Source: Anaerolineales bacterium | Lineage (GTDB): Bacteria; Chloroflexota; Anaerolineae; Anaerolineales; UBA11858 | DNA length: 36,791 nt | Direction: 5' to 3' | Assembly (NCBI GenBank): GCA_018335275.1 | Contig: JAGXKM010000013.1 | Coordinates: 1-36,791, forward strand | Part shown: positions 32,035 to 33,459 of the stretch, in pieces | Position numbering within the stretch: the first letter of the stretch is position 1 | Layout of the letters: each line of letters opens with the position of its first letter | Notes under the pieces: generated by a model | The model's input: only the letters and a program-made list of their open reading frames with translations | Told to the model about the DNA's origin: nothing | Databases searched by the model: none | Translations under genes and position numbers: made by a program

Positions 32035-32509
32035 ATATTTGTGTCCTGAATCAAGTTTATGTGTTGCCCTTAACTGACCCTTTGCGGAATGCTTTTTTTA
32101 GTGTAGCGCACGGTTAAAGCACCGTCAATGAAGCATAAGAGCGCTTTGAAAATGAAGAGGGTACATTAGCCATCCCGCAACAGAGCCCAAGGACTCATCC
32201 ACCTACGCTTGTATCATACCAGCTTAACACAATAAGATATTCTTCCAGCTCATACCCGGGATTCCACAAGAGTATTTGACATCTGGATCCAAGACATACA
32301 CGCCGGTCTTTGCGCTCTTGCCTGGACAATCCCGATTGATTTGAAGGGATCGTTTCCCGGGTGTGATATAAAAGGTTTAACTCGCCATCCAAAAAAGAAT
32401 AGGACAAGGATATGCTCCTGCACCAGTTCTCGTCCTCGGGCTGGATGACGAGTAATGCCTGATAATAATATTTGAACCCGGAATAGCCCATCCCCCAAAA
32501 GGAGGTGCC
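32035..32509. other. Intergenic stretch, 475 bases, between divergent genes
   Basis: A minus-strand frame (32195-32491) reads MGYSGFKYYYQALLVIQPED and continues to a stop, but its ribosome binding site is poor (GGGGG directly before the ATG) and no family is recognised, so it is not called. Promoters for the CapA-like gene (minus) and the peroxiredoxin (plus) must lie here; no certain -35/-10 pair was identified. Confidence 0.4.
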
Positions 32510-32986
32510 ATGTCGCAAGTATCGCTCAACCAGCCTGCTCCTGATTTTAGCCTGACCACGTACACCGGCGAGCCTTTTTCATTGTCTGATCTTCGGGGGC
32601 AGAAACACGTCCTCCTGGTTTTCAACCGCGGATTCACCTGACCGTTCTGCCGCGAACATCTGGCGCAGTTGCGCCAGGACTATGATCAATTTGCTGCCCG
32701 GGACACAGAGGTTGTGGCGGTTGGCCCAGAAAGCGCCAAGAAATTTCAGGAATACTGGGAAAAGGAAGACCTGCCCTTTATCGGACTGCCTGACCCTGAC
32801 CACGATGTGCTCAAACTCTACGGGCAGGAAGTCAACATATTTAAGCTCGGGCGTTTGCCTGCCCAGGTGGTCATCGACAAAGAAGGGATCGCCCGCTATG
32901 TACACTACGGAAAAAACATGAGCGATATCCCGGCTAACGAGAAACTGCTGGCCCTGATTGATGAATTCACTGAAAAACAAGCTTGA
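32510..32986 (+). CDS. Putative selenocysteine-containing peroxiredoxin-like protein (in-frame TGA read as Sec44)
   Basis: 158 residues if the TGA at 32639-32641 is read through. AAAGGAGG precedes the ATG. The first 43 residues (PAPDFSLTTYTGEPFSLSDL, then HVLLVFNRGFT) are a standard AhpC/TSA thioredoxin-fold start, and the frame continues after the TGA with PFCREHLAQLRQDYDQF and the rest of the fold (TEVVAVGPESAKKFQEYW, LPFIGLPDPDHDVLKLYG, LPAQVVIDKEGIARYVHYG). The TGA sits exactly where relatives have the first Cys of C-P-F-C, giving U-P-F-C. A 7-bp hairpin follows at the distance required for a bacterial SECIS. Such proteins reduce peroxides or disulfides in the cytosol. The gene's true stop is also a TGA. 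Co-transcribed DoxX follows 23 bases later. A plain nonsense mutation is the main alternative. Confidence 0.85.
32660..32677 (+). promoter_or_regulatory. Putative bacterial SECIS hairpin
   Basis: CTGGCGC and GCGCCAG form a perfect 7-bp stem capped by the loop AGTT. The loop starts 25 bases after the in-frame TGA and has G at its second position. Known bacterial SECIS elements need an apical loop 16-37 bases past the UGA with a G among its first two bases, so this fits. Confidence 0.7.
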
Positions 32987-33009: not shown

Positions 33010-33459
33010 GTGATAACTCAACTTTTTAAACCGGCCGGTGAACCAACCAGCAGAATCCGGGCCATTTTCCGGGTCGGGCTGGGGGTGTTTCTAATCTTTG
33101 CGGGCCTCAGCCATTTGACCTTCCAGCGGGTGGAATTTCTGGCCCAGGTGCCCAACTGGGTGCCCCTGGATGGAGACCTGGTGGTCGTTCTTTCCGGCCT
33201 GGTTGAGATCATCCTGGGTGCGGCACTGGTTTTTATTCCCCGCTTCCGGGTTTTCATCGGTTGGATTACAGCAGCTTTCTTCGTCGTGGTCTTCCCCGGG
33301 AACGTTGCCCAGTACCTGAACGGCACTAATGCCTTTGGGTTGAAAACCGACCGGGCCCGCTTCATCCGTCTCTTCTTCCAACCCCTGCTGGTGCTCTGGG
33401 CCCTCTGGAGCACGGGGGCCTGGCGCGATCTACAAGCCAGCCGGCATGCCGAGCAGTGA
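33010..33459 (+). CDS. DoxX-family membrane protein
   Basis: 149 residues from the GTG at 33010, with AAAGGA 8 bases before it; the TTG at 32983 overlapping the previous stop is less likely. Four membrane helices with family features: RVGLGVFLIFAGLSHL (helix 1), a VPNWVPLDGDLVVVLSGLVE segment leading into helix 2, RFRVFIGWITAAFFVVVFPG (helix 3) and a last helix FFQPLLVLWALW. DoxX proteins work in membrane redox and oxidative-stress defence; in mycobacteria a DoxX protein partners superoxide dismutase. It follows the putative Sec-peroxiredoxin by 23 bases, so both are likely one operon with a redox theme. Confidence 0.85.
   Translation: MITQLFKPAGEPTSRIRAIFRVGLGVFLIFAGLSHLTFQRVEFLAQVPNWVPLDGDLVVVLSGLVEIILGAALVFIPRFRVFIGWITAAFFVVVFPGNVAQYLNGTNAFGLKTDRARFIRLFFQPLLVLWALWSTGAWRDLQASRHAEQ

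Follow-up and report, generated by a model that had tools for sequence, protein, structure and literature searches.

The gene at positions 32510 to 32986 (forward strand) of the window, i.e. the whole stretch of 36,791 nucleotides that was analysed, is almost certainly a genuine selenoprotein gene with a SECIS hairpin, in which UGA codon 44 would be decoded as selenocysteine (Sec). This assignment is based on the conserved codon, a hairpin under RNA-level selection and the machinery genes of the source genome. The product is peroxiredoxin-like (Prx-like), and on balance we favour the view that it belongs to a distinct, almost Sec-only subfamily of Anaerolineae and other Chloroflexota, which has no curated model and in which the register of the SECIS has changed: family f2 would have moved the GU-loop hairpin 9 nt nearer to the same UGA by rewriting MAQLR to AQLAR. 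If true, this is a natural experiment on the spacing tolerance of SelB and a case of RNA structure dictating protein sequence. The window is one entire contig (C57) of a draft genome (2.47 Mb, 204 contigs, 89% complete), whose close relatives in the homologue searches are Anaerolineae of the phylum Chloroflexota.

The reading frame starts at the ATG at 32510, 4 nt downstream of the Shine–Dalgarno sequence AGGAGG (32500–32505), and encodes 158 residues up to its own stop TGA at 32984–32986. The sole in-frame TGA is located at 32639–32641; it specifies the first residue of U-P-F-C, and the translation around it reads ...VLLVFNRGFT-U-PFCREHLAQLRQDY... Cys47 (32648–32650), with which Sec44 makes up the UxxC redox pair, is nearly invariant in the alignment. 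The Pfam domain AhpC-TSA spans the TGA uninterrupted (residues 7–130, E=7.6e-26, 90.9 bits vs 26), and the homologues demonstrate strong constraint on both sides of the codon. An earlier note, made from the window's letters, had described a single TGA in place of the first Cys of a C-P-F-C motif, conserved coding on either side and a strong ribosome binding site, and all of these are borne out. The ORF list also contains a TTG-started frame of 105 aa (32669–32986), and standard gene callers will probably annotate this C-terminal fragment in place of the full gene. The existence of this frame allows the alternative that the UGA mostly terminates and that a functional C-terminal fragment is made from the TTG, or that readthrough is regulated by selenium; we regard this as very improbable, as the N-terminal half is conserved too and is part of the fold. 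Close downstream of the selenoprotein gene lies a gene for a weakly MauE/DoxX-like membrane protein (33010–33459). It was considered as an operon partner and rejected, because it is not kept beside the homologues in the flanks examined; the only neighbour case in another genome is a MauE/DoxX-like fragment upstream of the selenoprotein gene in locus L037.

Homologues were found in six other genomes in the family-level search, with one TGA apiece, and in 123 of 396 genomes in the class-level search, with one TGA in nearly all; the phylum-level search yielded TGA copies in further Chloroflexota as well. Among the loci read, the TGA is found exactly at codon 44 in 142 (139 distinct), nearly all of them from Chloroflexota. 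All homologues with at least 46% identity that cover codon 44 have TGA there and none has a sense codon. The closest copy without TGA is the Cys homologue L218 (TGC, 45% identity), which together with L225 (TGT, 41%) makes up the two Cys versions found within Chloroflexota. Aligned at residue 44, the position the earlier note had singled out, homologues thus carry TGA or a Cys codon. In a midpoint-rooted tree the Sec rows cluster, and three Cys rows form long branches of unsure placement, so no direction of the change between Sec and Cys is claimed. Matches of about 25–38% identity in cyanobacteria and proteobacteria were also considered as Cys versions of the subfamily and rejected: most are conventional peroxiredoxins with TxxC, or else TlpA/ResA-like proteins.

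Two other explanations of the TGA can be weighed at this point. That it is a sequencing error, or a nonsense mutation of a Cys codon in a pseudogene, might be suspected of a draft assembly with this many contigs, and the earlier note had itself allowed for a misread TGC. A base error is ruled out, since other assemblies have the same TGA at 139 distinct loci; the sequence on either side is under strong coding constraint and the TGA is followed by a conserved hairpin, which speaks against a pseudogene, and the chance of either is negligible. Equally negligible is a genome-wide recoding of UGA to a standard amino acid such as Trp or Cys, with which a frame open through the TGA would agree. TGA is the terminator of 9 of the 15 window ORFs examined, the Prx-like gene included; as it is an ordinary stop in the window, local hairpin-directed recoding is needed and not an altered code. 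Moreover, complete Sec machinery is present, and UGA 44 is the one place in the gene that is followed by a maintained hairpin.

The putative SECIS is the hairpin CTGGCGC-AGTT-GCGCCAG at 32660–32677, with a 7-bp stem, the AGTT tetraloop at 32667–32670 and 25 nt from the UGA to the loop. It agrees with the bacterial SECIS pattern of a stem–loop that closely follows the UGA and has a G in its small apical loop (PMC1088965). Of the 1403 TGAs of the window (both strands, any frame), 17, i.e. about 1%, are followed at a comparable distance by a perfectly paired stem of 7 bp or more, so the hairpin alone proves little; it is the comparative evidence on the homologues which rules out chance. Where Ala, Gln and Leu are encoded at codons +8, +9 and +10 after the UGA (137 sequences), the codons are GCG in 98%, CAG in 100% and TTG in 95%, compared with a pooled usage of 39%, 67% and 31% in the same genes. 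Divergence at third codon positions is 0.15 in codons +8 to +11, compared with about 0.6 in the coding sequence around them. Windows of 10 codons fold more stably than their synonymous shuffles over codons +3 to +16 (mean z about -1.5), and z stays near 0 away from the hairpin (about -0.4 to +0.5). The stem of form A (120 sequences) also covaries, its pairs varying with compensation as in GGCAC-AGTT-GTGCC (L029), TTGACGC-AGTT-GCGTCAA (L210) and CTCGCGC-AGTT-GCGCGAG (L165); none of 500 column shuffles, which ignore the kinship of the sequences, reaches the observed share paired, double changes or pair types. The GU of the loop is kept in 137 of 139 sequences (120 of 121, and 17 of 18 of form B). 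Thus the hairpin which the earlier note had pointed out, with G in its loop, and had called SECIS-like is both present and under selection at the RNA level.

The Cys homologues provide the expected contrast, as judged from two sequences. L218 keeps the protein motif LTQLR with the codons ACT CAA CTT CGG, so that the conserved hairpin is lost, and the conserved hairpin was not found in L225. Among the TGA homologues, L211 is without the GCGCAGTTGCGC hairpin and has another strong hairpin region instead (GGCGGCTCTGGCCAGAG).

A second register of the hairpin, form B, is found in 18 sequences of family f2, all of the same order (e.g. L180, L177 and L182). Its hairpin, GCGCGC-AGTTG-GCGCGC, has a 6-bp stem that is paired in 100% of cases, and its loop starts 16 nt after the UGA, versus 25 nt in form A, i.e. 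9 nt nearer and with the GU loop kept. The f2 protein reads RAQLAR, versus RHMAQLR elsewhere. In the midpoint-rooted tree the form B rows of f2 make up a supported group among the form A rows, which points to an origin of form B from form A.

The source genome contains selA, selB and selD as well as tRNA-Sec (71.5 bits; confirmed by ARAGORN, anticodon TCA), i.e. all the machinery genes which the earlier note had proposed to look for, and an absence of selB and selC, which would have told against Sec, is thereby excluded. According to the mechanism proposed here, SelB carrying Sec-tRNA-Sec would bind the mRNA hairpin just 3' of the UGA, and codon 44 would be decoded as Sec. Across the class, 123 genomes have a homologue, and selB (E<=1e-50, the weakest about 6e-72) is found in 116 of them. 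Five of the other seven have tRNA-Sec, and in two (G146 and G148) neither selB nor tRNA-Sec was seen; no tRNA-Sec was seen in G017 and G020. All four assemblies are drafts, split into 50 to 1110 contigs, and because drafts are incomplete such absences are weak evidence. For comparison, a selB match is present in 334 of all 396 Anaerolineae genomes (G000–G415), 314 of them above the curated cut-off, and Sec use seems to be the rule across the class.

Other genes of the source genome also contain UGA codons of this kind. The selD gene has its own in-frame TGA (L228:1528-1530, G000:C27) in the context CAGU-ASK, followed by a GGCGCAG-GTC-CTGCGCC hairpin which resembles the SECIS of the Prx-like gene; selD is probably a selenoprotein gene too. 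Two AhpC-TSA genes, L256 (G000:C56:33543-33920) and L257 (G000:C149:56985-57383), have TGA at the peroxidatic position (FTPVU and FTFVU, respectively) and probably encode TxxU selenoperoxiredoxins.

Concerning the structure, the AlphaFold model of the Prx-like protein (pLDDT 91.8, pTM 0.88) has a peroxiredoxin fold, and its best PDB matches are Bcp/AhpE peroxiredoxins, the top one being Bcp1 (TM 0.89). When the protein is aligned with Bcp1, U44 lines up with the Thr of TxxC and C47 with the peroxidatic Cys, while the Pro of PxxxTxxC corresponds to R40. The typical peroxiredoxin site PxxxTxxC/U is therefore not found, with R40 for Pro and U44 for Thr, and the protein has the UxxC motif U44-P-F-C47. 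The ResA and thiol peroxidase models are both matched by 70 of 70 aligned members, the window protein lying below their cut-offs. The product would be a peroxiredoxin-fold redox enzyme with the pair Sec44/Cys47, in which Sec44 would take the place of the first Cys of CxxC in thioredoxin-like proteins and Cys47 that of the peroxidatic Cys of true peroxiredoxins. Sec44 may attack a disulfide or a peroxide as the nucleophile; Cys47 would resolve the product to a selenenylsulfide, which a thiol reductant could then reduce.

As Sec44 is at the Thr position and Cys47 at the peroxidatic position, the alignments favour a thioredoxin-like UxxC mechanism (thiol:disulfide exchange) over a peroxidase, and we consider the former the probable one. 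A peroxidase of the peroxiredoxin or GPx type, with Sec44 peroxidatic and Cys47 resolving, is possible but rather unlikely. The fold and the Bcp/AhpE matches speak for it, and the nearly invariant Arg115, which may act as the peroxiredoxin active-site Arg, can be aligned with that Arg. The likewise nearly invariant Pro117 can just as well be aligned with the Pro found in TlpA-like proteins (e.g. 3hdc), which speaks against a peroxidase, as do the missing TxxC, the match of all aligned members to the ResA model and the presence of the two TxxU selenoperoxiredoxins in the same genome.

The earlier note had presented the gene as a new selenoprotein. This stands for the gene itself and perhaps for the subfamily, but not for the kind: Prx-like UxxC selenoproteins have been on record since 2005–2006 (PMC1088965, PMC1794560), and thiol:disulfide oxidoreductase selenoproteins of this type, assigned to pfam00578 and with UxxC or UxxU, e.g. 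WP_010940744.1, are described in several papers (PMC9312934, PMC13188914, PMC2398784, PMC1088965). What is apparently new is the nearly all-Sec Chloroflexota subfamily, which reaches no curated NCBIfam cut-off, and its re-registered SECIS. Among open-licence papers, no description of this subfamily or of the moved SECIS was found, nor anything specific on selenoproteins of Anaerolineae or Chloroflexota; a 2006 survey gave only three selenoprotein families for the phylum (PMC1794560). The subfamily adds about 140 clear selenoprotein loci to Chloroflexota, and its unusually deep alignment makes codon choice, covariation and register shift directly visible in a single bacterial SECIS.

With the known Prx-like UxxC selenoproteins the subfamily shares the Pfam domain, UxxC and a bacterial SECIS immediately after the UGA. 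It differs in the motif FNRGFxUPFC, in being nearly all Sec and in its near-invariant GCGCAGUUGCGC hairpin; from WP_010940744.1 it was set apart by description. The best curated model is NCBIfam NF040769 (SelL-related redox protein), which is matched by 70 of 70 aligned members; however, the window protein reaches 85.3 of the 120 bits required, and only over residues 8–105. The selenocysteine peroxiredoxins (Prx, TxxU) have the same fold and Pfam family and also use Sec as the redox residue, but there Sec is peroxidatic, whereas here it stands three residues earlier and Cys47 is in the peroxidatic place. The ResA/TlpA-type thiol-disulfide oxidoreductases have CxxC where UxxC is found here, and they share the conserved Pro that precedes the strand leading into the DxxG turn (chain 3hdc). 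They usually possess a membrane anchor or signal and use Cys; in contrast, the Prx-like protein has Sec and starts directly at the domain, so it is probably cytoplasmic.
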